64,000 nucleotides of DNA from Blautia luti (GTDB lineage: Bacteria > Bacillota > Clostridia > Lachnospirales > Lachnospiraceae): NCBI RefSeq assembly GCF_033096465.1, contig NZ_AP028156.1, forward strand, positions 190,001-254,000. The letters are read 5' to 3'. The notes under the pieces were generated by a model. It was not told where the DNA came from, did no database searches, and saw only the letters and a list, made by a program, of their open reading frames with translations. The position numbers and the translations under genes were made by a program. This document shows, in pieces, positions 2,801 to 48,837 of this stretch. Numbering within the stretch: position 1 is the first letter of the stretch; each line of letters begins with the position of its first letter.

Positions 2801-4267
2801 ATGGAGAATTTGAAGTTTTATGTAGATCAGAATGCGCCGAAAACTAAATTTGATCACTATTGGGAGAAATGCGTAGGTGCTTGCCATGCATATACTGCAC
2901 TGCGTGAAGATTACAGAATGATGCTGAGAAAAGCCAAGAAGGATCTGGGATTTCAGTATGTACGTTTTCATGGACTTTTTAATGACCAGATGAGTGTGGT
3001 CAGAGAAGTTGAGCCTGGAAAATACGAATACAATTTCGTCAATATTGACAATATCTTTGATTTCTTATTAAGTATTGACATGAAGCCATTTGTGGAATTG
3101 AGTTTCATGCCCACACCATTTGCATCAGGTGATCAGACTTGCTTCTATTATAAAGGAAACGTTACCATGCCTAAGAGCTTCGAACTGTGGGATGGATTGA
3201 TCGTTGAGTTGCTGAAACATCTGGAGAGCAGATACGGAATGGAAGAACTGGAGAAATGGTTCTTCGAAGTGTGGAATGAACCGGATCTGGATTTCTTTTT
3301 TGCAGGAGGCCAGGAAGATTATTTCTTATTATATGAACATACTGCCAGAGCAGTAAAAAGTGTAGGCGCAAACCTGAGAACCGGCGGACCGGCCACTGCC
3401 AATAATGAGTGGATCCCGGATTTTGTCAACTACTGTGAGAAAAATTTCGTACCACTTGATTTTATTTCCACTCATCACTATCCATCAGATGATCCCAACT
3501 GGAATGCAGATATGCATCTGGATAATTTCTTCGGAGAAGAAGTCAACTTAAACAGCGATGAGATAGACCGTAGAGGACTGCTGACCAAGATGGTACGTAT
3601 TGCGAAGCATGAAGCAGGAAACCTTCCATTATATTATACAGAATGGAACACTTCAGCCAATGAGGGAGACGAATTCCATGATACACCTTACAGCTCCGCA
3701 TTGGTAACCAAGACTCTCATTGATAACTATGGATATGTAGAAGCATATTCATTCTGGACATTTTCTGATATCTTCGAAGAACATGGACAGGTTCCGGGAG
3801 AGTTCAGGGGTGGATTCGGACTGCAGACCATTCATGGAATTCCGAAACCTGTATACCGTGCCTTTGAACTGATGCATCAGCTGGGAGAGGAACGGCTTCC
3901 GAAGGTAGAAGAACAGGGACATGTGGGAATCTGCCCGGTTGTGGACAAAGACGGCAGCCTTGCAATTCTGGTTTATAATCAGGAAATGATCGGAAAACCA
4001 GTCTCTGAAGAAAAAGTAGAAATTCATATCAAAAATGCCCCCGGTAAAAAAGCAGAGATCCAGAGGATCGATGATAACCATGCAAATGCGAAAAAACAAT
4101 GGGAAGAAATGGGATGCCCTACTTATCCCACACCTGCTCAGGTGAAGGAATTAAAAGAGGCTTCTGAGTTGAAAACAGAGGAATTACCTGTTAAGGTAGA
4201 AGGAGAAGAAGCAGTGCTGGAATTTGCTCTTCCGGCATATGGTGTGGCATTGATAAAATTGGTATAA
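2801..4267 (+). CDS. GH39 family glycoside hydrolase (beta-xylosidase-like)
   Basis: A 488-residue enzyme of glycoside hydrolase family 39, whose members usually release xylose from the non-reducing end of xylo-oligosaccharides with retention of configuration. The acid/base glutamate sits in WNEPD (E160) and the nucleophile in TEWN (E281), both in the expected order of a clan A (beta/alpha)8 barrel. The C-terminal ~100 residues look like the usual beta-sandwich. There is no signal peptide, so it should act in the cytoplasm on imported oligosaccharides. The start at 2801 is chosen over an upstream in-frame ATG because AGGAGG lies 5 bp before it. It heads a block with a YesM/YesN pair and a sugar importer, which fits a xyloside utilisation locus. 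Exact substrate is inferred. Confidence 0.9.
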   Translation: MENLKFYVDQNAPKTKFDHYWEKCVGACHAYTALREDYRMMLRKAKKDLGFQYVRFHGLFNDQMSVVREVEPGKYEYNFVNIDNIFDFLLSIDMKPFVELSFMPTPFASGDQTCFYYKGNVTMPKSFELWDGLIVELLKHLESRYGMEELEKWFFEVWNEPDLDFFFAGGQEDYFLLYEHTARAVKSVGANLRTGGPATANNEWIPDFVNYCEKNFVPLDFISTHHYPSDDPNWNADMHLDNFFGEEVNLNSDEIDRRGLLTKMVRIAKHEAGNLPLYYTEWNTSANEGDEFHDTPYSSALVTKTLIDNYGYVEAYSFWTFSDIFEEHGQVPGEFRGGFGLQTIHGIPKPVYRAFELMHQLGEERLPKVEEQGHVGICPVVDKDGSLAILVYNQEMIGKPVSEEKVEIHIKNAPGKKAEIQRIDDNHANAKKQWEEMGCPTYPTPAQVKELKEASELKTEELPVKVEGEEAVLEFALPAYGVALIKLV

Positions 4268-4288
4268 GAAATAAGAAGAGGTGGATGC

Positions 4289-6037
4289 ATGAAGGGTTTG
4301 AAAAGGATGAAGATAAAGACAAAAATATGGGTATTGTTCCTTGCCTGCATTTTAATGTCGTCTGTCATTTCCATAGGAACAGTGGTATACAGCAGTCAGA
4401 AATCCAATCTGAAGCATATCGGTGAAATGACAACACAGACTCTTCATGCCATCGACAGCAACCTGGAGCTGATGATCGATCATGTAAATCAGGATACCTA
4501 TGCAGTGTTCTGGAGCAAAATGTTTCAGGATACTCTGGAAGAGGTATCCAAAGGAAATCTGACTGTGAAGACTAGAACAGAATTGCAGGACTGCCTGACC
4601 AATATCATGCTGGCAGGAGATTATATTTCCTCTATTGTATTTTATGACAATATAGGAAATTCTTTTATGTGCAACAGAGAAGAGGTTGTTTTGAAGAAAG
4701 AAATTGCTGTAGAAGATGCCTACTGGTATGAAAAAGCCATAAAAAAGGATGGGGACTGGATCTTTGAGACAGATGGTGGAGGAATCGTCAGCTATAAAAG
4801 CAAAAACAGAAATATTCTCTCCATGATCCGTGTGATCAAGAAAAAAACAGATTATTCCAAATTGGGAATCCTCATGGTAAATATCGATGAGAAAACCATC
4901 CGCGAGATCTTCGATTCTGTGGGCGGAAATCTGAATTCCAATTTTTATGTGTTGATGAATGACACTTTGATCTTCGGACCGGAGGAAAAAGAAAACTATG
5001 ATGTAAGCAAGGATATTATCGGATCCCTGGAAGAAAATGAGACAAAGATTGTACGCAGCGAAGAGAATTCCATGGTGTATAAAAAGATCTCATCTATGAT
5101 AGATGGCTGGACCCTAGCTATAGAGACACCTATGAGCAGTTTTTCCAACAGTATCAGTTATTTCAATACGCTCATCGTCCTGATCGTCAATATAGGTATG
5201 CTGATCCTGTGCTGGCTTTTTATTTCCCGTACAGTGAGCAGACCGATCCAGAAAATGGAAGAACAGATGATGTATTCTAAATCTATTCCTGAGAACTTGG
5301 AGGTGGATGAAGAATGTGAGGATGAGATCACCAACCTGAAACGGACCTATAATAATCTGTTGAATTCTATCCGTAAGCTTCTGGAGAGAACCAAGGAAGA
5401 AGAGAAGATCATTCGGAAAAATGAACTGGATCTGATCCTGGAGCAGATCAATCCCCATTTCCTGTATAATACTCTGGATGTGATCAGCGGCCTTACTCTG
5501 ATCGGGGATCAGGACAAAAGTTTCCAGATGACACAGGCGCTGGGAAGATTTTACAGAAACAGCTTAAACAGTGGATGTCAGGTGATCACGGTGAGGGAAG
5601 AACTGGATATTATCAAAAGTTACATGACGATCATCAATATCCGGTATAATAATGAAATCAGCATTGAATATAAAGTGGATGAAAATCTGCTGGATATTCT
5701 GATGCTGAAACTGATCCTGCAGCCTTTGGTGGAGAATGCAGTCCATCATGGAATGCGCCAGAAAGAGGGCAAAGGGGAACTGTGTATTTCTGTGCATGCA
5801 CTGGACGACAAACTGATGGAAGTTTCTGTGAGAGATAATGGGGTAGGGATTCCGGAGGATAAGATCCGGCTGATCCTGGAAGGCGGATATAAAACTTCCA
5901 AGTCAGGATTCGGGCTTCACAGTGTGAAACAGAGAGTTGAACTATTTTATGGGATTGAGGATGCAGTATCCATATCCAGCCAGCCGGGATGCTGGACGGA
6001 AGTGAGGGTACGTTTTTCATACAAAACAGATGGTTAA
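4289..6037 (+). CDS. YesM-type sensor histidine kinase
   Basis: A 582-residue membrane sensor kinase. It has a first membrane segment at about residues 10-32, an extracytoplasmic sensor region of about 255 residues (probably Cache-like), a second membrane segment near 292-314, a HAMP linker, then a His_kinase domain with the phospho-acceptor His in NPHFLYN (about residue 389), and a HATPase_c domain with the N box in LVENAVHHG and a G box in DNGVGIP. This layout is typical of YesM/LytS-type kinases that sense sugars outside the cell and pair with AraC-type response regulators. It lies 21 bp after the GH39 gene and 20 bp before its partner. The ligand is probably a sugar or a liganded binding protein; that is an inference. 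Confidence 0.93.
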   Translation: MKGLKRMKIKTKIWVLFLACILMSSVISIGTVVYSSQKSNLKHIGEMTTQTLHAIDSNLELMIDHVNQDTYAVFWSKMFQDTLEEVSKGNLTVKTRTELQDCLTNIMLAGDYISSIVFYDNIGNSFMCNREEVVLKKEIAVEDAYWYEKAIKKDGDWIFETDGGGIVSYKSKNRNILSMIRVIKKKTDYSKLGILMVNIDEKTIREIFDSVGGNLNSNFYVLMNDTLIFGPEEKENYDVSKDIIGSLEENETKIVRSEENSMVYKKISSMIDGWTLAIETPMSSFSNSISYFNTLIVLIVNIGMLILCWLFISRTVSRPIQKMEEQMMYSKSIPENLEVDEECEDEITNLKRTYNNLLNSIRKLLERTKEEEKIIRKNELDLILEQINPHFLYNTLDVISGLTLIGDQDKSFQMTQALGRFYRNSLNSGCQVITVREELDIIKSYMTIINIRYNNEISIEYKVDENLLDILMLKLILQPLVENAVHHGMRQKEGKGELCISVHALDDKLMEVSVRDNGVGIPEDKIRLILEGGYKTSKSGFGLHSVKQRVELFYGIEDAVSISSQPGCWTEVRVRFSYKTDG

Positions 6038-10755: not shown

Positions 10756-10808
10756 GAAACTGCATTTGCTGATCGGATTGTAATGGATCAGTGATGCAGT
10801 TTCTTTTT
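10756..10808 (+). terminator. terminator of the sugar ABC operon
   Basis: GAAACTGCAT and ATGCAGTTTC form a perfect 10-bp stem around a loop of about 30 nt, followed by TTTTTTC. It separates the sugar operon from the peptidase gene. It also shows that in-frame start codons near 10791 are not used for that gene. Confidence 0.85.
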
Positions 10809-10898
10809 TCTTGTTCCATTCCCTTTTCTATGCTAAAATACTTTCATGATATCACGAACAGCTTTTCATCGTACAATATCAGGAAAGAGGCGAAGAAA

Positions 10899-12920
10899 TT
10901 GAACATTAAAAATTCCTGTATTTCCTACATTGACACAGACTGGTCCTATCAGCTTGCCAAACGCATGGAAAAAGAAAAAACCAATTCTGTCCTGGGTTAT
11001 CGTACTGCAGGTTCTGATGCAGAGACGGCCACAGGGGAGATGCTTTATAAAGAAATGGAGCAGATCGGCCTGAAAGATGTAACGAAGGATAGGTTTACAC
11101 TGGATGGCTGGGAATTTAAGAAAGCTGTACTGAAGTTCACGGATGAAGCAGGCCAGACTCATGAATTCCAGATGGGCGGTTACCAGACGAACTTCGAAAC
11201 GGACGAATTTCAGGATTACGAACTTGTCTATCTGGGAAAAGGCACAGCAGCTGATTACGAAGGAGTGAATGTAAAAGGCAGGCTGGTTATGGTGGAGATC
11301 AACCAGAGGGATGAATGGTGGATCAGCTTTCCGGTATATCAGGCCTATTTAAGAGGGGCAGCAGCTCTCATTGCAGTGCAGGCCAACGGTTACGGTGAGA
11401 TCGCGGAGACAGCCCTGAATGCACAGGATATTGCTGGGCCGGATTTCGCACCTGCATTTTCCTTGTCACAGGCAGATGCCCGGGTACTGAAAGATGCCTT
11501 GAGGGAGAAAGAATTCGTTACCGTTTCCCTTGATGCCTGCTCCAGGGTGATGCCTGATGTGAAAGCCAGCAATATTGTGGGAAAAATCCCAGGTACAGAG
11601 ACAGATTCCATGATCCTGTTATCTGCCCATTATGATTCCTATTTCGATGGATTTCAGGATGACAATGCAGCCATCGCCATGATGCTGGGAATTGCCAGGG
11701 CTTTGGTAAAGGGAGGATATCAGCCTGCTCATACCATCGTCTTCTGTGCCATGGCAGCGGAAGAATGGGGAGTGATCGACTCCAAGTACGACTGGTCCAC
11801 AGGGGCTTACAATCAGATATTTCGCGTACATCCGGAATGGCAGGGAAAAGTAATTGCAGATCTGAACTTTGAACTTCCGGCCCATGCACATAATACCCGG
11901 GATGCCATCCGCTGTACCTATGAATATGCAGATTTTATCCGGGAGTTTACAGAATCACTCACTGTGCCAAAAGAGGCGTATCCGGATGGGATTACAGTTC
12001 TGTATCCCATTGAAACCTGGTCCGATGATTTCTCCATGGCGATCGCGGGGATTCCTTCTACAGTCAATGATTTCAGTGCAGGTCCCTTCATGCAGAATTA
12101 TTATCATTCACAGTATGATAATCAGGATGTATATCAGGAACCGGTCTATCGTTTCCATCATGAATGTTATCTGAAACTGATCATGGAATTGGACCGTCTG
12201 GTACTGCCGCCGATGAATTTCGGCAATACCATGCATGCAGTGGCAGCCAGTGTGAGGGATACAGCTTCTGACTGTGCATCAGGAGATCAGAAGGAACTTC
12301 TGACACAACTGGAGGCAGCAGAAGAACTGGGATCACAGATCTATGACTGGATTTGCAGGATCAACGGAGAATATCAGAGTTTGACAGAGCGTTCAGCGAA
12401 GAAAGCTTTCCGTGAGAAATGGCAGCCACAGGGACAGAAACTTCTTCATATTTTCCGCAAGACTCAGGATTATCTGGTGCGCCTGAACTGGCAGGATGAA
12501 GTAATGTTTCCGCAGGAAGCAGCAGCCTGGAATATCCGCCAGCTTGAGAAAGCAAGGATATCCCTGGAGAAAAATGACATCACAGATGCGCTGAAAGCCC
12601 TTTACCGGGTAGATAATAATATGTATGCCTTTCTTTTTGACGAAGAGGTTTACTATCATTTCACAGAATACATCCTTCACCAGCCCAAGGACCGCCTGAT
12701 GTGGGGAGCAGGACGCATCATGCATCATGAGAACCTCTACGGGATCGTTCAGAAACTGAAAGAGCGGATGAATGAAAAAGAGCCTGAACTGGATGAAGAG
12801 ATCCGCCGCCTGGAGGCTGCCCTGCGCAGACAGAGAGCTTACTACAGAGATGATATCCGCTATCTGAAACAATCGGTTTCCAGGATTTACGTAATGCTGG
12901 AAGAAATAAAAGGATGTTAG
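10899..12920 (+). CDS. M28 family zinc metallopeptidase
   Basis: A 673-residue predicted M28 peptidase. A PA (protease-associated) insert spans roughly residues 120-225. The co-catalytic zinc ligands appear in order: His/Asp in SAHYDSYFDG, DD in QDDNAA, Glu-Glu in AAEEWG, and Asp in ADLNFE. After the catalytic domain comes a helical C-terminal extension of about 230 residues with no recognised family. There is no signal peptide, so it is probably cytoplasmic. The start is taken as TTG at 10899, behind AGGAAAGAGG; earlier ATG codons fall in or next to the preceding terminator. It is probably monocistronic and may trim peptides. Specificity cannot be read from the sequence. Confidence 0.85.
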   Translation: MNIKNSCISYIDTDWSYQLAKRMEKEKTNSVLGYRTAGSDAETATGEMLYKEMEQIGLKDVTKDRFTLDGWEFKKAVLKFTDEAGQTHEFQMGGYQTNFETDEFQDYELVYLGKGTAADYEGVNVKGRLVMVEINQRDEWWISFPVYQAYLRGAAALIAVQANGYGEIAETALNAQDIAGPDFAPAFSLSQADARVLKDALREKEFVTVSLDACSRVMPDVKASNIVGKIPGTETDSMILLSAHYDSYFDGFQDDNAAIAMMLGIARALVKGGYQPAHTIVFCAMAAEEWGVIDSKYDWSTGAYNQIFRVHPEWQGKVIADLNFELPAHAHNTRDAIRCTYEYADFIREFTESLTVPKEAYPDGITVLYPIETWSDDFSMAIAGIPSTVNDFSAGPFMQNYYHSQYDNQDVYQEPVYRFHHECYLKLIMELDRLVLPPMNFGNTMHAVAASVRDTASDCASGDQKELLTQLEAAEELGSQIYDWICRINGEYQSLTERSAKKAFREKWQPQGQKLLHIFRKTQDYLVRLNWQDEVMFPQEAAAWNIRQLEKARISLEKNDITDALKALYRVDNNMYAFLFDEEVYYHFTEYILHQPKDRLMWGAGRIMHHENLYGIVQKLKERMNEKEPELDEEIRRLEAALRRQRAYYRDDIRYLKQSVSRIYVMLEEIKGC

Positions 12921-13001
12921 GGTCAAAGCGTGCAGGCACGAACGGCTTTTTGAACTTTAACTCTGATATTATAGAATAATTGAAGGAGATTTATACATAA
13001 T

Positions 13002-13643
13002 ATGGAAAGCAATAAGTTATACAGAGTACAGGAAGACGATTTGCCGCGATTGCAGAAACTGCTGACGGTCTGCTTCGCCCAGGATCCGTTATATCATGCA
13101 CTGATCCCTGATGACGATACCAGAGAACGGCTTCTCCCGGAGCTTTTTTCCTGCGATCTGACGGAGTTTTTTCACACCTGTGAGATCTATTCCGACAGCA
13201 GTGAACTGAACAGTATTCTGGTGGTTTCTGATGAAACAGAGCATTATAATTTCCTGGAGTACTGCCTCACAGAGGCGAAGGCCATGCTTACCACAGATGG
13301 CTGGCTGATCAAAGAGGATCCCAGCCTGAAGACCTTCTGGAATTTCGTTCAGGGAAAGGATTACCTGAATTCCAGCTGGACGGACCAGCTTCATCAGACC
13401 GAACGGCTTCATGTAATTTACCTGGCAGTGGATCCGGGCCATCAGCACCATGGACTGGCAGAACTTCTGATGGATGAAGTGATCGATTATGCACAGGAAC
13501 ATAAGATGCTGATCTCCCTGGAAACGCATAATCCCAACAATGTTCCCATCTATGAGCATTTCGGCTTCAAGACTTATGGAATTGTGGAGAAACCTCATTT
13601 CGGACTGAAGCAGTATTGTATGATCAAAGAAGCATCTGTATAA
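13002..13643 (+). CDS. GNAT family N-acetyltransferase
   Basis: A 213-residue GNAT protein. The acetyl-CoA binding region is seen as VIYLAVDPGHQHHGLAELLM (a Q/RxxGxG/A-like loop, here QHHGLA), followed by the typical beta-bulge segment NPNNVPIYEHFGF. The N-terminal half matches the small-molecule-acetylating GNAT type more than ribosomal ones. GAAGGAG precedes the ATG. The substrate is unknown and the neighbours give no clear clue. Confidence 0.88.
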   Translation: MESNKLYRVQEDDLPRLQKLLTVCFAQDPLYHALIPDDDTRERLLPELFSCDLTEFFHTCEIYSDSSELNSILVVSDETEHYNFLEYCLTEAKAMLTTDGWLIKEDPSLKTFWNFVQGKDYLNSSWTDQLHQTERLHVIYLAVDPGHQHHGLAELLMDEVIDYAQEHKMLISLETHNPNNVPIYEHFGFKTYGIVEKPHFGLKQYCMIKEASV

Positions 13644-13773
13644 AAAAATAGCCTATTTTGCAGTTGGATTTTTGTATAAATCTTCATCTGGTAATCTTTG
13701 CAGATTTATATTATAATAAGATATAAATATGTTGTACTATATCAAGAAAGATAACTAATAAGGAGGACTTATA

Positions 13774-14151
13774 ATGGTACGCAACGCGATGAGCGCAACT
13801 GAATATTATATTTTGAATTATTTATGGTCCAGAGAAACACCAGGGACTTTTTCCGAGATTATGAATTACTTTAATAACGAGGCAAATAAAGAATGGAAAA
13901 AGCAGACTGTAAATACATTCCTTACACGCCTTGCTCAGAAAGGTTTTCTGAATATTGACAAAAGCGGTAAACGTGCGATCTATATTCCGGCCGTTACGAA
14001 GCAGAAATATTTCGAGAATTATGCTCAGCAGATCGTTGACGATTCTTATGAAGGTTCTCTGAAGAATTTTGTCAGTGCATTTACCAATGTCCGTAAGCTG
14101 ACTGAGAGCGAGAAAGAAGATCTGATCAATTATATTAAAGGACTGAATTAA
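13774..14151 (+). CDS. BlaI/MecI-like winged-helix repressor
   Basis: A 125-residue protein of the BlaI/MecI/CopY penicillinase repressor family. The N-terminal winged helix includes SATEYYILNYLW and TVNTFLTRLAQKGFL, the recognition region of the family; the C-terminal half would form the dimerisation domain. AAGGAGG precedes the ATG. No BlaR1-type sensor protease or beta-lactamase gene is next to it, so its target and inducer are unknown. It stands alone between its own promoter region and a terminator. Confidence 0.88.
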   Translation: MVRNAMSATEYYILNYLWSRETPGTFSEIMNYFNNEANKEWKKQTVNTFLTRLAQKGFLNIDKSGKRAIYIPAVTKQKYFENYAQQIVDDSYEGSLKNFVSAFTNVRKLTESEKEDLINYIKGLN

Positions 14152-14294: not shown

Positions 14295-14500
14295 ATAACA
14301 TTTATTGGTTTTGAACCAGTCGTTGTAAGTTCCGCAAGGATTAATAGAGAAACCGGTGTAAGTCCGGTACGATCCCGTCACTGTAATAGGGAGCTTCGTA
14401 ATGATAAATGTCACTGGACCATGTGAAGTTAAAGTTGGTCTGGGAAGGCGATTTCGAAGTGATGATTTTAAGTCAGGAGAACTGCTTACAATTGGGATAG
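14295..14500 (+). ncRNA. cobalamin (B12) riboswitch
   Basis: The leader contains the conserved cobalamin-riboswitch core in order: GGTGTAAGTCCGGT (about 14355), GATCCCGTCACTGTA (about 14371), CACTGGACCATGTG (about 14412), TCTGGGAAGGCG (about 14440) and the B12 box AGTCAGGAGAACTGC (14471-14485). Binding of a cobalamin normally shuts down expression of the downstream genes. Here a terminator (14551-14588) follows, so control is probably at transcription elongation. It places the following ABC importer under corrinoid supply. Confidence 0.95.
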
Positions 14501-14550
14501 GAATGATTCTTACGGTAGATAGGAAGCATAATTTTTTCGTGTCATTTTGT

Positions 14551-14588
14551 GTCCGTATGTATGGTATTTTATATACGGGCTATTTTTT
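14551..14588 (+). terminator. riboswitch-linked terminator
   Basis: GTCCGTATGT pairs fully with ATATACGGGC (two G-U pairs) around a 10-nt loop, followed by TATTTTTTT. It sits 65 nt after the B12 box and is the natural expression platform of the riboswitch. Confidence 0.85.
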
Positions 14589-14601
14589 TGCGTAAAATTA
14601 A

Positions 14602-14651
14602 GCCCCCTGGGGGGATTTTTCCGCGTTACTGAACAAAAGGCGCTCAGTAAC
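14602..14651 (+). other. two extra hairpins between riboswitch and first gene
   Basis: A GC palindrome GCCCCCTGGGGGGA (14602-14615) is followed by five T residues. A perfect 8-bp stem GTTACTGA/TCAGTAAC (14625-14651) then ends 32 nt before the ribosome binding site. They may be a backup terminator and an mRNA-stabilising or translation-linked hairpin. The function is inference only. Confidence 0.55.
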
Positions 14652-14699
14652 AATTCTGAAATTGGTTTAATTCACGAAAGATGTAGGAAGGAGATTATT

Positions 14700-15638
14700 T
14701 TGACGAAAAAACAAATCGGGAAAAGATTTCTGCAGATTCTGATCGTCCTTTTCGGTATCAGTTTTCTGACCTTTGGACTGACTTATCTGTCTCCTGGTGA
14801 TCCGGCTGAGATCATGCTGACAGAGTGCGGTAATCTTCCCACACCGGAGCTTCTGGAACAGACAAGACATGAGCTGGGTCTTGACCAGCCGTTTCTTGTA
14901 CAGTATGGAAGCTGGCTCAAGGGTGTGCTTACCGGAGATATGGGACAGTCCTATTCCTTTAAGATGCCGGTAGTACAGAAACTTGTATCCTGTTTCTGGC
15001 CAACCCTGAAGATGTCTTTGCTGGCATTGCTGATGATGATCGTGATTTCCATCCCATTGGGAATCCTGGCAGCAGTGTATCAGAACAAATTCCCGGACTA
15101 TTTTGTAAGAGGAATTACTTTTATCGGGGTGTCCGTACCAAGCTTCTGGCTGGGTCTGATCTTACTTAGCATCTTCGGTGTACAGCTTCGCTGGGTAAAT
15201 GTAGCAGGAGGAAGCACCGACTTAAAGGCGATGATCCTGCCGTCACTTACGTTGGCCCTTGCCATGTCTGCGAAATATACAAGACAGGTAAGAAGTGCGG
15301 TTCTGGAGGAGCTTCACCAGGATTATGTAACAGGTGCACGAATGAGAGGAATCAAAGAGAGCGTAATCCTCTGGAGACATGTTCTTCCGAATGTAATGCT
15401 CCCACTGGTAACTCTGCTTGGACTTTCTCTGGGAAGTCTTCTTGGCGGTACTGCGGTCGTTGAGATCATCTACAACTGGCCTGGTATGGGAAATATGGCA
15501 GTCAAAGCAATCTCCTGCCGCGATTATCCGCTGGTTCAGGGATATGTACTGTGGATCGCTATCCTGTATATGTGTATCAATCTGCTTGTGGATCTGTCCT
15601 ATACTTATCTGGATCCAAGACTTAAGGAGGATAGATAA
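14700..15638 (+). CDS. ABC transporter permease, nickel/dipeptide type (NikB/DppB-like)
   Basis: A 312-residue permease of the peptide/nickel importer class. The N terminus shows the family signature (RFLQILIVLFGISFLTFGL, then LSPGDPAE) and the C-terminal half carries the inner-membrane binding-protein-dependent transport domain (GARMRGIKES and HVLPNVMLPL). The start is TTG at 14700 behind AGGAAGGAGA; longer in-frame readings run back into the riboswitch terminator. It is the first gene under the cobalamin riboswitch and abuts the second permease. The usual length of the family is 300-340 residues. Confidence 0.92.
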   Translation: MTKKQIGKRFLQILIVLFGISFLTFGLTYLSPGDPAEIMLTECGNLPTPELLEQTRHELGLDQPFLVQYGSWLKGVLTGDMGQSYSFKMPVVQKLVSCFWPTLKMSLLALLMMIVISIPLGILAAVYQNKFPDYFVRGITFIGVSVPSFWLGLILLSIFGVQLRWVNVAGGSTDLKAMILPSLTLALAMSAKYTRQVRSAVLEELHQDYVTGARMRGIKESVILWRHVLPNVMLPLVTLLGLSLGSLLGGTAVVEIIYNWPGMGNMAVKAISCRDYPLVQGYVLWIAILYMCINLLVDLSYTYLDPRLKEDR

Positions 15639-16463
15639 TTGAAGTTAGCGAAAGTATTTAAAGAAAATAAGCAGTTTACCCTTTTTTCGATACTGGCGCT
15701 GGTGGTAGTCGGTGTAGCTGTGTTTGCTCCGCAGATCGCACCCTACGACCCGCTGGATGCAGTAATGCTGGAATCCCTTCAGGCGCCAAGTTCTGCACAT
15801 CCCTTTGGAACAGACAAGCTGGGACGTGACCTGTTATCACGAGTGATCTTCGGAACCAGAACTTCTCTGGTCATGACATTATGTCTGGTAGCAGTTATCT
15901 TTGTGATCGGTACATTTCTTGGAGTTATCGCCGGATACTTCGGTGGAATCATAGACAGTGTGATCATGCGTATCGCAGATATGATGATCTCTTTCCCTGG
16001 TCTGGTACTTGCCATCGCAATCGCCGGTATGCTGGGACCGAACCTTGTAAATGCGGTTATCTCCATTGCAGCAGTAAGCTGGACCAAATATGCCCGTCTT
16101 GCACGAAGCATGGTACTGAGAGTAAAGAAAAACCTTTATATTGAAGCAGCAGTCGTAAACGGAACCAAGACATGGAAGATTCTGCTTGTACATGTTCTCC
16201 CGAACATGGTTACTCAGATGGTAGTAACTGCAGCAGCAGATATCGGAACCATGATGCTGGAGCTGGCATCCTTGTCATTCCTTGGTTTTGGTGCTACAGC
16301 GCCGACACCTGAATGGGGACTGATGCTCAACGAGGGAAGAACTTACATGGCAAAAGCACCTTGGCTGATGATCTACCCAGGTATTGCGATCGTGATCTGC
16401 GTAGTTATCTTCAACATGCTTGGTGACAGCATCCGTGACGTTCTCGATCCGAGACAGGAGTAA
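15639..16463 (+). CDS. ABC transporter permease, nickel/dipeptide type (NikC/DppC-like)
   Basis: A 274-residue second permease. The family signature HPFGTDKLGRDLLSRVIFGT is present near residues 48-67, followed by the transport domain (AAVVNGTKTWKILLVHVLPN). The start is TTG immediately after the upstream stop codon, with AAGGAGG 8 bp before it, so translation is coupled. It forms the membrane channel with the previous gene product. Confidence 0.92.
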   Translation: MKLAKVFKENKQFTLFSILALVVVGVAVFAPQIAPYDPLDAVMLESLQAPSSAHPFGTDKLGRDLLSRVIFGTRTSLVMTLCLVAVIFVIGTFLGVIAGYFGGIIDSVIMRIADMMISFPGLVLAIAIAGMLGPNLVNAVISIAAVSWTKYARLARSMVLRVKKNLYIEAAVVNGTKTWKILLVHVLPNMVTQMVVTAAADIGTMMLELASLSFLGFGATAPTPEWGLMLNEGRTYMAKAPWLMIYPGIAIVICVVIFNMLGDSIRDVLDPRQE

Positions 16464-16701
16464 GAAAGCAGGCTGTTGTTTCTTATATAATGAGGACAGC
16501 TCAAATATATCCGCATGGTAAAAAAATGCCGGGTATAAAAAGTTCTGCGGCTTCCGTACTGAACCGTAGAAGATAAGGTAAGATAGAGTAACAATCAACC
16601 GGTGCAGACAGCAATCGGACTTCTGCACAAGTAATAATGATAAATGATCAACCATAAAGTGGAAATGAATCCCACTTACCTAATTTTTTCAGGAGGAATA
16701 T
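16464..16701 (+). other. 238-bp intergenic leader with hairpins
   Basis: No gene is seen between the second permease and the binding-protein gene. The stretch holds a perfect 7-bp stem GTGCAGA/TCTGCAC (16602-16628) and a small AAGTGG/CCACTT hairpin (16656-16680 region) followed by a T-run, just before the ribosome binding site CAGGAGG. This could be an attenuator or a processing site setting a different level for the binding protein. I see no second cobalamin riboswitch core. Confidence 0.4.
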
Positions 16702-18258
16702 ATGAAAAACACATTATTCAAAAAAGTTTTAGCAGTAGCACTTGCATGTACAATGACATTTTCCATGGCAACTGTAACTCACGCAGCAGATGCAAAAGAG
16801 ATCACAATCGGTGTAACAAGCTTCGCTGATACTCTGGAGCCTACAGAGCAGTACTTCAGCTGGGTTGTTTCCCGTTATGCTATTGGTGAGTGCCTTACTA
16901 AATTCGATGAGAACGGTGAAATCGTTCCTTGTCTGGCAGAGAGCTGGGAAAACAGCGAAGACGGACTTACATGGACATTCAAGATCCGTGAAGGCGTGAA
17001 ATTCTCCAACGGTGATGACATGACACCGGAGATGGTAATGGCATCTATCCAGCGTACAGCTGACAAGAGCGACCGTGTACAGGAGTTCTTTGACCTGGAC
17101 AGCATGGAAGTTGACGGACAGAACCTGATCTTCCACTTAAACAGAGCAAACGCAAACATGGCAGGAAGCCTTGCAGACCCGTTATTCCTGATCGTAGATA
17201 CAAACGTAGATGACTCTACATTTGCAATGGAAGGACCGATCTGTACAGGACCTTACGCAGTAGAATCTTTCAGCCCTACAGACTCCTGCGTTGTGGTTAA
17301 GAATGAGAATTACTGGGATGGAGAAGTGCCGCTGGATAAGGTTACACTGAAATGTGTAGATGATCAGACAACACGTTCCATGGCTCTTCAGACAGGTGAG
17401 ATCGATATCGCTTATAACTTAAAGACAGAGAACCTTATTGAGTTTGAAGGAAATGACAATTATGAGATCCAGGAGCTTCAGTCCCTGCGTTCCACATACG
17501 CATTCATGAACCAGAGTGAAGGTCGTGCACTCAGCGATAAAGCGCTTCGCCAGGCACTTCTGCGCGGACTTGATAAACAGACATACTGTGACGTTCTTCT
17601 TGAGGGTGGAGCTACAGCAGGTAAAGCACCGGTACCTCCGACACTTGACTTCGGATTTGATGATCTGAACGATGAGAACAGCTATGATCCGGAAGGTGCG
17701 AAAGCAATCCTTGAGGAAGCTGGATACAAAGATACAGACGGTGACGGATTCGTGGAAACACCGGACGGAGATCCGCTGACACTTGATTTCGTTATCTATA
17801 CAAGCCGTGCAGAGCTTGGTGTTTACGCACAGGCAGCACAGGCAAGCTTAAAAGATATCGGTATCAATGTAAACCTGAACACAGTAAGTTATGAAACACT
17901 TCTCGACATGAGAGATTCCGGTCAGTATGACCTTCTTATCTGGAACGTACTTGTTGCAAACACAGGTGACCCGGAAAACTACTTAAGAGAAAACTGGTAC
18001 AGCAAATCTGCAAACAACACAGCAGGATACAATAATCCGGAAGTAGATGAACTTCTTGATGAGCTTGCAGGAACATTTGACGAAGAAGAAAGAAAAGACC
18101 TGATCATCAAGATCCAGCAGGATATCATGGATGATGCAGCAACTGTATTCTTCGGATATGAGACAACTTATCTGTTCTCCAACAAGAGAGTTACAGGCGT
18201 GAAGATGTATCCGATGGATTACTACTGGCTGACAAAAGACATTACACTTGCTGAGTAA
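16702..18258 (+). CDS. family 5 extracellular solute-binding protein
   Basis: A 518-residue periplasmic-type binding protein of the dipeptide/oligopeptide/nickel family (SBP_bac_5). A signal peptide of about 29 residues ends at THAAD. Family marks include GECLTKFDENGEIVPCLAES, the segment TWTFKIREGVKFSNGD and the conserved NENYWDG. No canonical lipobox Cys is seen. It lies between the permease pair and the ATPase pair, making a complete importer. The ligand cannot be read directly; the riboswitch points to cobalt, a cobalt chelate or a corrinoid precursor, although peptides remain possible. Confidence 0.92.
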   Translation: MKNTLFKKVLAVALACTMTFSMATVTHAADAKEITIGVTSFADTLEPTEQYFSWVVSRYAIGECLTKFDENGEIVPCLAESWENSEDGLTWTFKIREGVKFSNGDDMTPEMVMASIQRTADKSDRVQEFFDLDSMEVDGQNLIFHLNRANANMAGSLADPLFLIVDTNVDDSTFAMEGPICTGPYAVESFSPTDSCVVVKNENYWDGEVPLDKVTLKCVDDQTTRSMALQTGEIDIAYNLKTENLIEFEGNDNYEIQELQSLRSTYAFMNQSEGRALSDKALRQALLRGLDKQTYCDVLLEGGATAGKAPVPPTLDFGFDDLNDENSYDPEGAKAILEEAGYKDTDGDGFVETPDGDPLTLDFVIYTSRAELGVYAQAAQASLKDIGINVNLNTVSYETLLDMRDSGQYDLLIWNVLVANTGDPENYLRENWYSKSANNTAGYNNPEVDELLDELAGTFDEEERKDLIIKIQQDIMDDAATVFFGYETTYLFSNKRVTGVKMYPMDYYWLTKDITLAE

Positions 18259-18284
18259 TCTTAATCAAAAAGGAGCGTTAATTT

Positions 18285-19070
18285 ATGCTTGAAATAAAGG
18301 ATCTCTCAGTCCAGTATGGAAAGCAGGCACCTACCATCGAACATTTCAACCTGAACATGAAGAAGGGCGAGATCATCAGTGTTGTAGGTGAGAGTGGAAG
18401 TGGAAAGACCACTGTTATCAGAGCTGTCCTCGGCGCACTTGCCGGAGGCGGTAAGGTAACACAGGGAGATATCCTCTTTAACGGAAAATCCCTGCTGACC
18501 AATACCAAGGATGAATGGAGACAGTTAAGAGGAACACGTATATCCATGATCTTCCAGGACTGCGGCGGAACCCTGAATCCGATCCGTAAGATTGGAAGCC
18601 AGTTCGTGGAATATATCTGTACTCATTCAAAAATGTCAAAAGAAGAAGCATGGAAAAAGGGTGTCAGCATGATCGAGAAGATGCGTCTTCCGGAAGCAGA
18701 GAATATCATGAACAGTTATCCTCATCAGCTTTCCGGTGGTATGCGTCAGCGTGTCGGTATCGCCATGGCAATGACCTTTAATCCGGAACTGCTTCTGGCA
18801 GACGAACCGACCAGTGCGCTGGACGTTACCACTCAGGCACAGATCGTACGTCAGATGATGGAACTTCGTGATGATTTTCACACAAGTATCATCATCGTAA
18901 CCCATAACATTGGTGTAGCTGCTTACATGGCGGATCAGCTGATCGTTATGCAGCACGGAAAAGTCGTGGATCAGGGAACAAGGGATGAGGTTATGAATCA
19001 TCCGACAAGTGATTATACAAAGAAACTTCTGGCAGCAGTACCGGAAATGGAGGGACGCCGTTTTGTTTAA
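18285..19070 (+). CDS. ABC transporter ATPase, NikD/DppD-like
   Basis: A 261-residue ATP-binding subunit. It has Walker A GESGSGKTT, Q loop MIFQD, signature LSGGMRQR, Walker B LLLADEPTSALD and the switch His in VTHN. It lacks the longer oligopeptide C-terminal extension often found in DppD/OppD. Its end overlaps the next ATPase gene by 8 bp, implying coupled translation. Confidence 0.93.
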   Translation: MLEIKDLSVQYGKQAPTIEHFNLNMKKGEIISVVGESGSGKTTVIRAVLGALAGGGKVTQGDILFNGKSLLTNTKDEWRQLRGTRISMIFQDCGGTLNPIRKIGSQFVEYICTHSKMSKEEAWKKGVSMIEKMRLPEAENIMNSYPHQLSGGMRQRVGIAMAMTFNPELLLADEPTSALDVTTQAQIVRQMMELRDDFHTSIIIVTHNIGVAAYMADQLIVMQHGKVVDQGTRDEVMNHPTSDYTKKLLAAVPEMEGRRFV

Positions 19071-20037
19071 GGAATCAGATATCGTGCTGAGTGCAAAGCA
19101 CATCGTAAAACAGTTTCCGGCATCCCATGGACGGACACTGACAGCCTGCAATGACATTAACCTTAATGTATATAAAGGCAAGACATTAGGAATTGTAGGA
19201 GAGAGTGGATGCGGTAAATCCACATTCGTAAGAATGGTCATCTCCCTCGACAAGCCTACCAGCGGTGAGATTCTGTATCATGGCAAAAACCTTGCTGATC
19301 TTTCCAGGAAAGAAACATGGTTAAACCGCCAGAACATGCAGATGGTTTTCCAGGATCCGCTGGCATCATTTAACCCGAAGATGAAGATCGTGGATATCCT
19401 TACAGAGCCGCTGATCAATTTCGGAAAATTAAAGAAAAGCGAAAAAGAAGCCAAAGCAAGAGAACTGCTGGAAATGGTAGAACTGCCGGGTGATTTCGTA
19501 GATCGTTATCCGCACAACATGAGTGGTGGACAGAGACAGAGAATCAGTATTGCAAGAGCGCTTTCACTGGAACCGGAGATCCTGGTTTGTGATGAGGCGA
19601 CATCTGCACTGGACGTTTCCGTACAGGAATCTGTGATCGAGCTTCTGGTACGACTTCAGAAAGAAAAAAATATCAGCATGCTTTTTATCTGTCATGACCT
19701 GGCGCTGATCCGCTCTTTTGCCCATCAGATCGCTGTTATGTATCTGGGAAATATCGTAGAGGTTATTCCCGGTGAAGATGTTACAGAGCATGCAGTACAT
19801 CCGTATACACAGGCACTTCTGGGTGCACAGTTCTCAATCCACATGGATCCCAGTCAGAAAATCCAGAGTATCGAGAGTGAAGCACCAAGTCCTCTGGATG
19901 TACCTAAGGGCTGCCCTTTCCAGAACCGCTGCGAGCATTGTATTGACAGATGTAAGGCAGAGATGCCGAAGCTGAAAGAAATTGCTCCCGGACATGAAGC
20001 AGCTTGTTTCTATGTGGAGGAGCATCTGAAAAATTGA
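19063..20037 (+). CDS. ABC transporter ATPase, NikE/DppF-like
   Basis: A 324-residue ATP-binding subunit with Walker A GESGCGKST, Q loop MVFQDP, signature MSGGQRQR, Walker B ILVCDEATSALD and switch CHD. The C-terminal oligopeptide/nickel extension carries a Cys cluster (GCPFQNRCEHCIDRCK and a later AACF), a common feature of this family. The start is TTG at 19063 behind GGAGG, overlapping the upstream ATPase gene; longer readings begin deep inside that gene. With the previous subunit it forms the heterodimeric motor. Confidence 0.92.
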   Translation: MFKESDIVLSAKHIVKQFPASHGRTLTACNDINLNVYKGKTLGIVGESGCGKSTFVRMVISLDKPTSGEILYHGKNLADLSRKETWLNRQNMQMVFQDPLASFNPKMKIVDILTEPLINFGKLKKSEKEAKARELLEMVELPGDFVDRYPHNMSGGQRQRISIARALSLEPEILVCDEATSALDVSVQESVIELLVRLQKEKNISMLFICHDLALIRSFAHQIAVMYLGNIVEVIPGEDVTEHAVHPYTQALLGAQFSIHMDPSQKIQSIESEAPSPLDVPKGCPFQNRCEHCIDRCKAEMPKLKEIAPGHEAACFYVEEHLKN

Positions 20038-20056
20038 AGGAAAGGGGGAAGGTGTA

Positions 20057-21298
20057 ATGAGAAGAAAGTTTATCAGTCTGACACTGAGTGCAGCTCTTGT
20101 GCTTGGAGTTACACCCCCTGCCTGGGCTGCCGCTGAAACCTATGCAGATGGTGAGGCGCATACAATTGGTGTCATCGTATATGATCCGGATTCTTCAGAG
20201 ATGGAAATGTTCGCTGACTACTACCGTGATTATATCCAGGCAGGTTTTCCTGTGAAATTCATTTTCTCCGGCAGGACAACCAACGCAGAGGATGAGATTC
20301 AGTATATTGATAAAATGAAAGAGCAGGGTGCAGAAGGAATCATTTCTTTTGCAGGTTTTGCAGCAGGACTTCAGGATATCATCGGGGAATGTGAAAAGGA
20401 AGAGGTGTATTATGCACTTGGTTCTAACACGATCAGCGATGAGAATTATGAAGTAGTAAAAGATAATACCTATTATATGGGAAGTGTGGGACCGAAGCTT
20501 GAAGATGTGTACCAGAGCGGATGTGATATGACAGAGTATTTTCTGGATAAGGGTGCGAAGAATTTCGTGATCATGTCCGGTGGCGCTTCTTCAGGGAACC
20601 GTCTGCATCAGGTGAGAACCTGGGGAATGCTCAATACATTGGAAGAGAAAGCAGGGCTGGTTCTGACAGAAGAAGCAGAAACACTTTCTACAACAGAAGA
20701 AGTTACAAAGCTTTCCAGTGAAGACGGTTCTGTACAGGTTACGATCTGTCCGGGATACACAGAGCAGGATGGACCGGGACTTGACAATCTGAGTACTGCA
20801 TTTGCAGATGGAAACTGTGATGCATTGATGAGTGCATTCCATGTTTCTACTTATCTGGACAAAATTGCAGATAAAGAGAAAGAACAGAACAGCAATATTC
20901 TGGTAGGTTCTATCGACAGTTTTACCGATGGAAATTATGAGCTTTTCCAGGAGAAAGATATGTTCGGAAATCCACCTGTTGATTATGTACAGGGTAAATA
21001 TGCATCTCTGGCAGGCCCTGCATTTGCCATGATCTACAATGCCATCACAGGAAATTCGGATGCAGTGAAAGAGAACGGACAGGCAGCACGTCTGTACCAG
21101 GGCTTCTGGACCGCAACAGACGAGAAAGATTATGAAGAGCTTTATGGATATGCAACAGGTATTTATGAAAACGCATACAGCTGTGATGATCTTCAGGGCG
21201 TGATCAAGGTATTTGATGAAAGTGCTACACCTGAGAAGTTCAAAGAGCTGACAGAGAGCTATTCTGTAGAAGATGCTAAGGCGCGTATCTTTGATTAA
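20057..21298 (+). CDS. second solute-binding protein, type 1 periplasmic-binding fold
   Basis: A 413-residue secreted protein with a clear signal peptide (cleavage near AWAAAE). The mature part starts HTIGVIVYDPDSSEMEMFAD and resembles the type 1 periplasmic-binding fold seen in sugar- or autoinducer-binding proteins, with motifs such as GAEGIISFAGF and FVIMSGGASSG. This fold is unrelated to the family 5 binding protein encoded two genes upstream. It lies 19 bp after the ATPase gene, preceded by GGAAAGGGGGAAGG. No partner transporter of its own class is nearby. It may present an alternative ligand or act as a sensor; the function is unknown. Confidence 0.8.
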   Translation: MRRKFISLTLSAALVLGVTPPAWAAAETYADGEAHTIGVIVYDPDSSEMEMFADYYRDYIQAGFPVKFIFSGRTTNAEDEIQYIDKMKEQGAEGIISFAGFAAGLQDIIGECEKEEVYYALGSNTISDENYEVVKDNTYYMGSVGPKLEDVYQSGCDMTEYFLDKGAKNFVIMSGGASSGNRLHQVRTWGMLNTLEEKAGLVLTEEAETLSTTEEVTKLSSEDGSVQVTICPGYTEQDGPGLDNLSTAFADGNCDALMSAFHVSTYLDKIADKEKEQNSNILVGSIDSFTDGNYELFQEKDMFGNPPVDYVQGKYASLAGPAFAMIYNAITGNSDAVKENGQAARLYQGFWTATDEKDYEELYGYATGIYENAYSCDDLQGVIKVFDESATPEKFKELTESYSVEDAKARIFD

Positions 21299-21382
21299 GA
21301 ATAATATTTACTTATGAAAACATCTGCGTGTTTCTGTTTTTATTTGACAGGAATGTGAAAGAATGTTAAAAATGAAAAGGCA

Positions 21383-21418
21383 GGGAGTTGATACTTCAGG
21401 TATCCGCTCCCTGTTTGA
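21383..21418 (+). terminator. hairpin between binding protein and AstE-like gene
   Basis: CAGGGAG/CTCCCTG with an inner GATAC/GTATC pairing forms a strong stem, followed by TTTG only. It could be a weak terminator or a processing site, so the AstE-like gene may be partly read through from the ABC operon. The surrounding 236-bp gap holds no other gene. Confidence 0.55.
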
Positions 21419-21534
21419 AAATATGGAAGTTTTACACAACTAACTGCTAAAACTGGTATTTATTGAACAATATAAGGGCCTGCCGGTGGATGATAAGATC
21501 TGGCAGACATGGAATGAGTAGAGGAGAATATAGG

Positions 21535-22614
21535 ATGAGGACATTACGAGTAGCAGACCTGGAAGCGAAGCCGGGTGAGAAAGTATCCGGATTTGTGCAT
21601 ATCATTGGCGCAGAATTTGGAATTCCGGTAACACTGATCTGCGGAGAGAAAGAGGGCGAGACAGTCCTGATCTCCGGTGGTGTACATAATGCTGAATATG
21701 TGGGAATTCAGGCTGCCATGCAGCTTGCGGATGAACTGGATCCAAAGAAGATCGCAGGAAATATCATAGTGATCCGCCTGATGAACAGAACCGGATTTGA
21801 GCATCGTACCATGAGTCTTACCTATGAGGATGGAAAAAACCTGAACAGAGTTTTTCCCGGAAATCCGAATGGTACACTCAGTGACAGGATCGCTTATACT
21901 GTTGTAACAGAATTTTTCCCGAAAGCGGATTACTATGTGGATCTGCACTGTGGTGACGGATTTGAGGGCCTGGTATCCTATGTATACTGTACAGGTGCAG
22001 CAGCGCCGGAAGTAGCCGCAAAGAGCCGCGAAATGGCTGAGATCGCACATGTGGACTATCTGGTAACTTCCATGTGTGGAACAGGCGGAGCTTATAACTA
22101 TGCCGGAAGCATGGGAATTCCGAGTATCCTGCTGGAACGTGGTCACAGCTCCCGCTGGTGTGAAGATCTGGTTGCTGAGGATGTTCATGATGTGAAGAAT
22201 ATCCTCAGACATCTTGGAGTTCTTCGCGGTAAATCTCATATGCATGGCAAACCGCCGGTAGAAGTAAGTCCTGTTATCTATGAGGATGCACCGGTATCAG
22301 GATGCTGGTACCCGGCGAAACAGCCGGGTGAGACTTTCAAAGAGGGAGAAGTGCTGGGAAGGATCTGCGATTATTTTGGACGGGAACTGTTTGTGTACAG
22401 AGCCAAAATGGGCGGAATTATTCTTTACCAGACGATCAGTTTATGTATTATGAAAGACACGCCGATGGTTTCTTATGGAACCTGGGATGAGGATACACAG
22501 GGTAAGATCGAGGTTGAATGTGAAGTGTGTGGAAATGCAAAACATAAGCATGGACATCACCATAAGAAGGATGATAAGCACCATAAACGTCATGAACATC
22601 ATAAAGAAATGTGA
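21535..22614 (+). CDS. succinylglutamate desuccinylase/aspartoacylase-like zinc hydrolase with His-rich tail
   Basis: A 359-residue M14-like deacylase of the AstE/AspA group. Zinc ligands are visible as His and Glu in GGVHNAEYVG and as His in VDLHCGDG. The segment around ILLERGHSSRWC may carry the later active-site residues. A barrel-sandwich-like C-terminal part follows (residues about 245-330). The last ~30 residues contain CEVCG and then at least ten His among Lys/Asp/Glu, a likely metal-binding tail. The start at 21535 follows GAGGAGA at 7 bp. There is no signal peptide, so it would act inside the cell on an amide or ester, perhaps a chelator brought in by the upstream transporter. That role is inferred from context. 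Confidence 0.82.
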   Translation: MRTLRVADLEAKPGEKVSGFVHIIGAEFGIPVTLICGEKEGETVLISGGVHNAEYVGIQAAMQLADELDPKKIAGNIIVIRLMNRTGFEHRTMSLTYEDGKNLNRVFPGNPNGTLSDRIAYTVVTEFFPKADYYVDLHCGDGFEGLVSYVYCTGAAAPEVAAKSREMAEIAHVDYLVTSMCGTGGAYNYAGSMGIPSILLERGHSSRWCEDLVAEDVHDVKNILRHLGVLRGKSHMHGKPPVEVSPVIYEDAPVSGCWYPAKQPGETFKEGEVLGRICDYFGRELFVYRAKMGGIILYQTISLCIMKDTPMVSYGTWDEDTQGKIEVECEVCGNAKHKHGHHHKKDDKHHKRHEHHKEM

Positions 22615-22670: not shown

Positions 22671-22728
22671 AATACGGCTGCGCTATATCTGTAAAGTGAA
22701 TTTCAGATACAGTGCAGCCGTGTTTTAT
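22671..22728. terminator. bidirectional terminator
   Basis: AAATACGGCTGC and GCAGCCGTGTTT pair with an inner ATCTG/CAGAT stem. A-rich and T-rich flanks make it usable from both sides, between the AstE-like gene and the convergent DUF2284-like gene. Confidence 0.8.
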
Positions 22729-22729
22729 A

Positions 22730-23212
22730 CTAATCTTCATGAAACAGAATCTGTGTAAAGAATCTCACATCTGAGTCATCTGCCCAGCAGACCATACCAA
22801 CTGCGTCAGCCATTTTCTGGGCATCCACACTGTAAGCAGACATACAGGAACAATTCTTATACGGTCCTGCACTCATGATCAGGACATCTTCTTTTCCATT
22901 TTCCTGCATCCATTTGGCAAGCTGTTCGGTAAGGATATTCTGTGCATGCTTCGCCTGTTTGAAAAGAACCGGATCCATGACCGGATCTTTCAGAACCGTC
23001 TGGAGAACCAGCGCTTTCTCATATTTCATTGCTTTCTCCTGCATTTCCTCAACAGTGCCGCAGGCAGGCGGACATGCAGGAACCAGGTTATAATTTCCGC
23101 AGAGATTGTCCTCGCAGAACTGTCTGTATTCCGGTACAAATACCAGGTCTTTTGTATCCATGATCGCTGCATTTGCGAATCCCATGGAAAGTGCTTCCTT
23201 TATTAAATCCAT
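22730..23212 (-). CDS. DUF2284-like Cys-rich predicted metal-binding protein
   Basis: A 160-residue protein matching the DUF2284 pattern, with Cys clusters in FCEDNLCGNYNLVPACPPAC and in GPYKNCSCMS, and a conserved end of the domain (SVDAQKMADAVGM). The family is predicted to bind metal, perhaps an iron-sulfur cluster; biochemical function is unknown. AGGGAGA precedes the ATG on the minus strand. It converges on the riboswitch-controlled importer operon, so a shared role in metal handling is possible but unproven. Confidence 0.8.
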   Translation of the reverse strand: MDLIKEALSMGFANAAIMDTKDLVFVPEYRQFCEDNLCGNYNLVPACPPACGTVEEMQEKAMKYEKALVLQTVLKDPVMDPVLFKQAKHAQNILTEQLAKWMQENGKEDVLIMSAGPYKNCSCMSAYSVDAQKMADAVGMVCWADDSDVRFFTQILFHED

Positions 23213-48685: not shown

Positions 48686-48699
48686 TCCGAAAGAACGAT

Positions 48700-48790
48700 A
48701 ACTTTCCCTACGTTGGCATTATCCAAATCAGGTTATGGGTTAAAGCGATACAGCTTACTCTCAGCCTGTTTACACAAGCTCCCCTTGTCT
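48700..48790 (-). ncRNA. TPP riboswitch (THI element)
   Basis: Read on the minus strand, the conserved blocks occur in order: GGGGAGC, GGCTGAGA (CTGAGA at 48764-48759), AACCTGATTTGGATAATGCC and AACGTAGGGAA. This is the classic thiamine pyrophosphate aptamer. It lies about 320 nt upstream of thiC, whose synthesis it represses when thiamine is ample. Confidence 0.96.
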
Positions 48791-48837
48791 TAATCTTCCT
48801 GCATTGTAGCACTATGACGCGAAGAAGTCAAGAAAAA

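Follow-up and report, generated by a model that had tools for sequence, protein, structure and literature searches.

How do cells obtain enough cobalt for vitamin B12 when other metals are in excess? The question is raised by an operon in a 64,000-nucleotide stretch of a Blautia genome (bases 190001-254000 of a 3.74-Mb contig; hereafter the window). Here a cobalamin riboswitch precedes genes for a NikABCDE-type ATP-binding cassette (ABC) importer, a second solute-binding protein (SBP1) and an AstE-type zinc hydrolase. I argue that this operon probably encodes a B12-repressed importer which supplies cobalt for de novo B12 synthesis, and to which SBP1, a descendant of sugar-type solute-binding proteins, has been added. 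The features at issue are the following.

14310..14503, plus strand: aptamer of a cobalamin (B12) riboswitch, RF00174 (96.9 bits by cmscan, E 6.4e-23, model 1-189, full)
14551..14588, plus strand: Rho-independent terminator, the riboswitch expression platform (stem 14551-14580, then TATTTTTTT)
14700..15638, plus strand: nikB-like permease, 312 aa (BPD_transp_1; NCBIfam Opp2B 394.4 bits, cut-off 350)
15639..16463, plus strand: nikC-like permease (BPD_transp_1; NCBIfam Opp2C 333.3, cut-off 300)
16702..18258, plus strand: nikA-like family 5 solute-binding protein (SBP_bac_5, 302.6 bits)
18285..19070, plus strand: nikD-like ATPase (ABC_tran)
19009..20037, plus strand: nikE-like ATPase (ABC_tran and oligo_HPY; start not fixed, open reading frame overlapping nikD)
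20057..21298, plus strand: SBP1, type-1-fold binding protein of sugar-type descent
21378..21416, plus strand: strong hairpin in the SBP1-astE gap, resembling a terminator or attenuator, with a short U run (-24 kcal/mol, z -5.5)
21535..22614, plus strand: AstE/AspA-type zinc hydrolase (start ATG 21535 by orthologue ends, not TTG 21463)
22519..22611, plus strand: C-terminal CxVCG and His-rich tail of AstE, the His-rich part preceded by CEVCG
22730..23212, minus strand: convergent DUF2284 gene, predicted metal-binding (PF10050, 78.4 bits)

The nucleotides directly show a riboswitch with a terminator, five genes of an importer with SBP1 in their operon, and astE directly after it, the seven genes lying on one strand in the order nikB, nikC, nikA, nikD, nikE, SBP1, astE. 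The initial annotation had described this layout (a B12 riboswitch with terminator; two permeases, a family 5 binding protein and two ATPases; then, in the same direction, a type-1-fold binding protein and an AstE-like zinc hydrolase), and the family matches and gene order bear it out. The aptamer scores above the RF00174 gathering score of 31.5, and the terminator stem folds at -14.9 kcal/mol (z -4.3), a stability reached by none of 200 shuffled sequences. At its longest, the nikB reading frame would begin at 14547, inside the terminator; several orthologues of 312 aa agree instead with a start at TTG 14700, preceded by GGAAGGAG.

Neighbourhood searches, of the kind that the annotation had suggested, showed the riboswitch-Nik-SBP1 unit to be conserved. 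SBP1 searches gave loci in 14 of 200 genomes of the family and in 24 of 64 of the genus, counting distant sugar-type homologues; NikB searches covered the genus and the class (in the class, 7 of 391 genomes, with at most 5 candidates per genome scored). Scanning genome contigs with an SBP1 alignment gave 10 loci, in each of which SBP1 comes directly after whatever Nik genes the stretch contains; seven carry a cobalamin riboswitch, and the other three (L012, L014, L015) end at a contig edge. Among loci fetched through NikB the riboswitch was found in seven of eight. I then define the Nik clade as the 32 loci with NikB of at least 54% identity. Where at least 400 bp lie upstream (29 loci), a riboswitch is present in 28, with L108 as the sole exception; that of L111 matches the adenosylcobalamin model RF01482 rather than RF00174. 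By contrast, none of eight operons of the NikB2 paralogue (46-49% identity) has a riboswitch upstream of nikB, and where these stretches do contain a cobalamin riboswitch, in L098 and L099, it stands ahead of cbiM-like genes. L016 was counted as riboswitch-bearing, its aptamer (4135-4385) preceding the 312-aa start. The count leaves out L012, L014 and L077, with less than 300 bp ahead of the first nik gene, and L015, L079, L113, L091 and L093, with no intact nikB in the stretch, though L093, a remnant, does carry a riboswitch; L068, L069 and L073 duplicate the contigs of L010, L016 and L014. Two riboswitches occur in L075 and in L076, its near copy, one belonging to SBP1 and the other to the nik genes. 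Rfam 'Clostridiales-1' matches were also seen in L007 and L101.

Which metal would such an importer carry? The permeases pass the cut-offs of Opp2B and Opp2C, nickel-permease models that are also their closest curated ones. NikA, whose best PDB sequence match is the nickel-binding protein 3t66 (E 5e-62), falls under every listed NikA, CntA, Opp and Dpp curated cut-off, including those of the canonical nickel NikA models (TIGR02294, 206.5 against 393; NF045468, 331.7 against 600) and of the staphylopine-binding CntA model (NF047575, 135.6 against 800). A peptide importer was considered and rejected: NikA lies far under the Opp and Dpp cut-offs, and B12 control speaks against it. By eye, no clear lipobox was found in the N-termini of NikA or SBP1 (window 16702 and 20057), an odd absence for binding proteins of a monoderm.

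The case for cobalt comes from the context. The genome encodes CbiD, a protein matching the CbiJ, CbiE and CbiT models, CbiA, CobQ and two CbiK proteins, together with one nickel carbon monoxide dehydrogenase (Ni-CODH) gene and five cobalamin riboswitches beyond that of the window; neither CbiM nor NicO was found in it. Cobalt-related neighbours occur at one locus each among the 32: in G226 cbiD comes immediately after the riboswitch-led nik genes; in G324 the genes after nik encode a P1B-ATPase, a MATE carrier and a protein that is CbiL-like by eye; in L010 CbiK (PF06180, 304.7 bits) follows SBP1; and in G292 the Nik-SBP1 unit has beside it a NiCo riboswitch (41.1 bits, cut-off 37), ahead of a gene that by eye is CDF-like. 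Of the 38 genus genomes that are at least 90% complete, 13 have the Nik clade, and 1 of these has CbiM, a cobalt carrier; of the 25 that lack the clade, 17 have CbiM (p 5e-4). CbiM matches weaker than E 1e-20 were not counted, the genomes passed through no contamination filter, and G216 was scored as Nik-bearing on a contig with partial NikE and SBP1. MATE genes were seen in this context as well, one (PF01554) directly ahead of cbiD in the own genome (L087:10156-11496), MATE-like ones near B12-switched nik genes in L023, L024, L075, L107, L109, L110 and L111.

The riboswitch-Nik core has precedents. The NikABCDE systems of C. tetani and D. hafniense were predicted to lie behind B12 riboswitches and treated as exceptions to nickel specificity, E. 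coli NikA metal-site residues serving as discriminators (Zhang 2009, PMC2667541); the S. ovata nikA riboswitch has been called promiscuous and its aptamer used in a chimera (PMC9600662). These systems and the window have in common the riboswitch, the Nik/Opp-type genes (in the window two Nik-type permeases, a family 5 binding protein and two ATPases) and a predicted use of cobalt, whereas a type-1-fold binding protein and an AstE with a putative metal-binding tail, as in the window, go unmentioned in the excerpts of those reports available here. Sinorhizobium meliloti CbtJKL is likewise a cobalt ABC importer under an adenosylcobalamin riboswitch (PMC7689651), with which the window would share its predicted cobalt role; its binding protein is BtuF-like, whereas the window has SBP_bac_5 and BPD_transp_1 in place of a BtuF-type binding protein with a FecCD permease. 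The core is therefore known, and the window likely holds a B12-controlled cobalt importer of a known kind. Cnt/Opp1 staphylopine importers are Opp-type importers for a metal chelate; the CntA, CntC and Opp1B models score under their cut-offs for the window proteins, and by eye no metallophore synthesis genes were recognised beside the operon.

The annotation's remark that the combination was not known as described thus fails for the core, already published, and holds for its partners: judged by titles and the starts of abstracts, the open-access literature searched yielded no link of SBP1 or AstE to Nik operons, and the word 'cobaltophore' had no match there. What is new is the riboswitch linkage of the Nik clade as against its paralogues, the presence beside Nik genes of a binding protein of sugar-type descent, with its own riboswitch in one lineage, and the recurrence of AstE relatives, the window's subfamily bearing a CxVCG motif and a His-rich tail.

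SBP1 has the type-1 periplasmic binding fold. It scores 25 against Peripla_BP_4 (PF13407; gathering cut-off 35.1), and its listed Foldseek matches are sugar-type binding proteins and one LacI-type regulator. In a tree, which leaves out two partial sugar-type homologues (L029, L031), it descends from binding proteins of sugar operons, recognised by eye from neighbouring RbsA-size ATPases and permeases. Its own clade has 28 rows, of which 27 adjoin Nik genes and the remaining one is an orphan. Unlike Rbs/Mgl-type sugar-binding proteins, SBP1 sits in B12-controlled Nik operons that lack a sugar permease. It is also the fastest diverging component, with 45-60% identity where the importer genes keep 80-95% (for example L070 and L008), as expected of a protein that would meet a varying ligand. 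SBP1 is likely a dedicated extra binding protein of the importer, one not found described in the open-access literature searched. The alternative that it works for a sugar or signal importer encoded elsewhere, with nothing but regulation in common with the nik genes, would account for its fold and descent and for the lack of an RbsC-type permease among the operon genes; it is improbable, given the near-constant company of Nik genes and a B12 control that sugar use leaves unexplained. SBP1 was rejected as a metal-chelating protein by sequence: H184 and C112, the only two His or Cys positions conserved in the Nik group, are kept in most or all sugar-group rows as well.

The hydrolase following SBP1 matches AstE_AspA_cat (PF24827, 91.2 bits, cut-off 25). 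Aligned to DoeB, it keeps the family's HxxE...H zinc ligands, NxNR motif and catalytic Glu (GGVHNAEY, KNLNRVFPG, DLHCGD, ERG). Its predicted structure has a DoeB-like fold, with pLDDT (predicted local distance difference test) values under 50 from residue 334 on. It shares fold, zinc ligands and the NR substrate motif with DoeB/EutE (N-acetyl-diaminobutyrate deacetylase, 6twm), from which it differs in sequence (22% identity) and in its CxVCG/His tail and Nik context; membership of DoeB itself was rejected (TIGR02994, 88.9 bits, cut-off 402.7). The His-rich C-terminus noticed in the initial annotation is real. Among the best 120 of 999 homologues, the end of the core could be read in 104, after which at least four His occur in 51 and a CxxCG-like motif in 58. 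In the tree the 10 tailed rows group as a single clade, together with one truncated member (G223). HypB- and SlyD-like proteins have comparable His-rich tails, which bind metal.

Within 8 kb of the Nik clade an AstE relative is found in 18 of 28 loci, counting those with enough flank that were not found through AstE (L112 was so found; L009, L072 and L081 have cut flanks; the AstE of L075 and L076 was read from the next stretches, L106 and L105). Across the 64 genomes of the genus, 42 AstE-type genes reach E 1e-40 or better, so that chance proximity is estimated at less than 1% per locus. Position varies: AstE is the first gene after the riboswitch in L109, follows SBP1 in L012, L015 and L113 (the last fetched through AstE) and NikE in L092 and L108, starting 28-72 nt past SBP1 or NikE in L113, L015 and L092 by the ends of the reading frames; it lies upstream in L013, L070, L071 and L094, is divergent in L107, and in L074 is convergent, within a riboswitch-led FecCD operon. 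It stands near P1B-ATPases in L011, L077, L078, L105, L106, L107 and L115, in five of which (L011, L078, L105, L106, L115) an ArsR relative occurs as well. Long reading frames mark a second AstE clade, of which two members were examined and are methyltransferase fusions; genes of this clade lie near NikB2 or cbiM-like genes. In these two, AstE is joined to S-adenosylmethionine-dependent methyltransferases, on both sides in L096:8121-10646 and on one in L102:7664-9358; this clade stands near Nik operons that lack the riboswitch (NikB2 neighbours in L097-L104), and in the own genome its member and the non-riboswitch Nik operon are not adjacent.

From these elements a pathway can be proposed. When cobalamin falls, the terminator would no longer form and the importer would be made; NikA and/or SBP1 would capture cobalt, probably complexed with an organic ligand, and NikBCDE would carry it inward. 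Cytosolic AstE might then hydrolyse the amide (N-acyl) bond of the ligand, and its CxVCG/His tail might hold the released metal for the cobaltochelatase CbiK; these last steps are the least certain. It is plausible that cobalt enters as an organic chelate that AstE cuts; AstE as a chelate hydrolase with a metal tail is a testable hypothesis, and its genomic linkage is strong. A more tentative extension, which I hold to be rather doubtful as a whole, is a cobaltophore-like pathway in clostridial gut bacteria: cobalt bound to an amide ligand would be caught by NikA and SBP1, imported by NikBCDE, freed by AstE and passed from the tail to CbiK, while in relatives the P1B-ATPase would expel co-imported zinc-like metals and the MATE carrier would perhaps export the ligand. 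A B12-switched operon with a recruited binding protein of organic-ligand type and a linked, tailed amidohydrolase makes the question of cobalt as an organic chelate testable, and would add a B12/cobalt trait for annotating gut Lachnospiraceae without CbiMNQO.

Several findings weigh against a cobalt importer assisted by SBP1 and AstE. The His region of E. coli NikA, which holds metal-binding residues, aligns with non-His residues of the window NikA in a pairwise HMMER alignment of low identity, so that the metal cannot be read from NikA. Over all 64 genus genomes the opposition of the Nik clade and CbiM is weaker (CbiM in 7 of 20 with the clade and 29 of 44 without; p 0.03), and on a CbiD tree of 37 rows, where the two traits change 10 and 12 times, independent well-supported pairs (none changing the same way, about three opposite) give a median p of 0.25, the comparison being underpowered. 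Seven near-complete CbiD-bearing genomes have neither the Nik clade nor CbiM, so further cobalt routes exist; CbtJKL, with its BtuF-like binding protein, can carry cobalt (PMC7689651), and BtuF-like systems may offer such a route in the own genome too. P1B-ATPases accompanying several relatives have, in 7 of 7 read, a CPC motif, typical of the Zn/Cd/Cu type, so other metals may be handled. SBP1 has gained no conserved His or Cys relative to its sugar-operon kin. All four Nik-clade loci beyond the family lack it, as do G226, G218 and G324, and in these the importer would have to work without it. AstE was not found within reach in 10 of the 28 loci, and the 236-base gap between SBP1 and astE holds the hairpin, given which astE may form a separate or attenuated unit.

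This last point leads to the possibility, which I regard as real if doubtful, that SBP1 and the importer are the system and AstE an independent neighbour with its own cargo. It would explain the hairpin and a promoter-like site ahead of astE, the loci without AstE, and G223, where astE (99%) stays in place while the Nik cassette differs; it sits badly with AstE relatives of several subfamilies inside the nik operon elsewhere (L109, L113, L015, L092) and with the 18 neighbouring loci, for which the chance estimate is well under one. Nickel, or nickel mixed with cobalt, is an unlikely cargo. The nickel permease models, the Ni-CODH gene and the relative beside a NiCo riboswitch point that way, and B12 switching would follow if nickel and corrinoid enzymes were used together; yet a second Nik operon without a B12 riboswitch could serve nickel in this genome, single clade loci adjoin cbi genes, and the clade anti-correlates with CbiM.

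The initial annotation had left the choice between a cobalt-chelate and a corrinoid-related uptake system. The genomic context lends good support to B12-controlled cobalt uptake; the corrinoid side is weaker because the genome has two further riboswitch-led operons, with Peripla_BP_2 binding proteins and FecCD-type importers, in one case with the permease tested and an ATPase (L018:18094-20000 and L019:1-4981), in the other with the permease read by eye, an ATPase and a CGGC-domain protein last (L021:1227-4995). That the window operon imports corrinoids or B12 precursors, with AstE working like the corrinoid amidohydrolase CbiZ, is in my judgement quite unlikely. Its B12 riboswitch would suit such a role, as would the G224 AstE relative, which ends a riboswitch-led operon with Peripla_BP_2, FecCD, an ATPase and a CbiK relative. 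Against it stand these separate importers alongside B12 synthesis genes, the rarity of the Nik clade where CbiM occurs, and AstE relatives that also adjoin non-riboswitch Nik operons, P1B-ATPases and ArsR.

The operon occupies a site at which related genomes hold different cassettes. G261 has the window's cassette at 94-99% identity (importer genes 98-99%), adjoining DUF2284, while the upstream block of M28, GNAT and BlaI-like genes is inverted and just 71-92% alike (window 10791-14151 against L067:3190-6874); given this higher likeness, the nik cassette could have been exchanged recently. G223 has the same flanks, with the block inverted, and AstE and DUF2284 both at 99%, around a different Nik cassette (NikB 58%, SBP1 35%) with MATE, P1B-ATPase and ArsR genes. 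In G262 a decayed copy (L093:8235-10406) retains the riboswitch, a partial nikB and a nikE fragment, SBP1 and astE being gone; CbiM is present in G262 and also in G261. DUF2284 is the constant neighbour, kept in G261, G223 and G262, and is not claimed as part of the importer system. Between astE and this convergent gene an inverted repeat with a T run, seen by eye at 22674-22727, is likely a two-way terminator.

The other cobalamin riboswitches of the genome precede varied genes. The operon of L018 and L019 begins, by eye, with a large surface-type reading frame. At L018:12438-14178 (G000:C1:1512437-1514177) a riboswitch stands ahead of a protein of 486 aa in which a CbiK domain (PF06180, 251.6 bits) and, by eye, a signal peptide are present; it looks like a cobaltochelatase-like protein that is secreted and controlled by B12. 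The protein after it is NEAT-like (31.4 bits, slightly short of the 32.8 cut-off). Another riboswitch (L017:7385-11549) precedes a protein of 1301 aa that contains CarboxypepD_reg and Big_2 domains, and a third (L020:10765-11518, minus strand) a Cys-rich small-domain protein (PF04071). Elsewhere in the window lies a thiamine pyrophosphate (TPP) riboswitch (48687-48795, minus strand, 60.4 bits).

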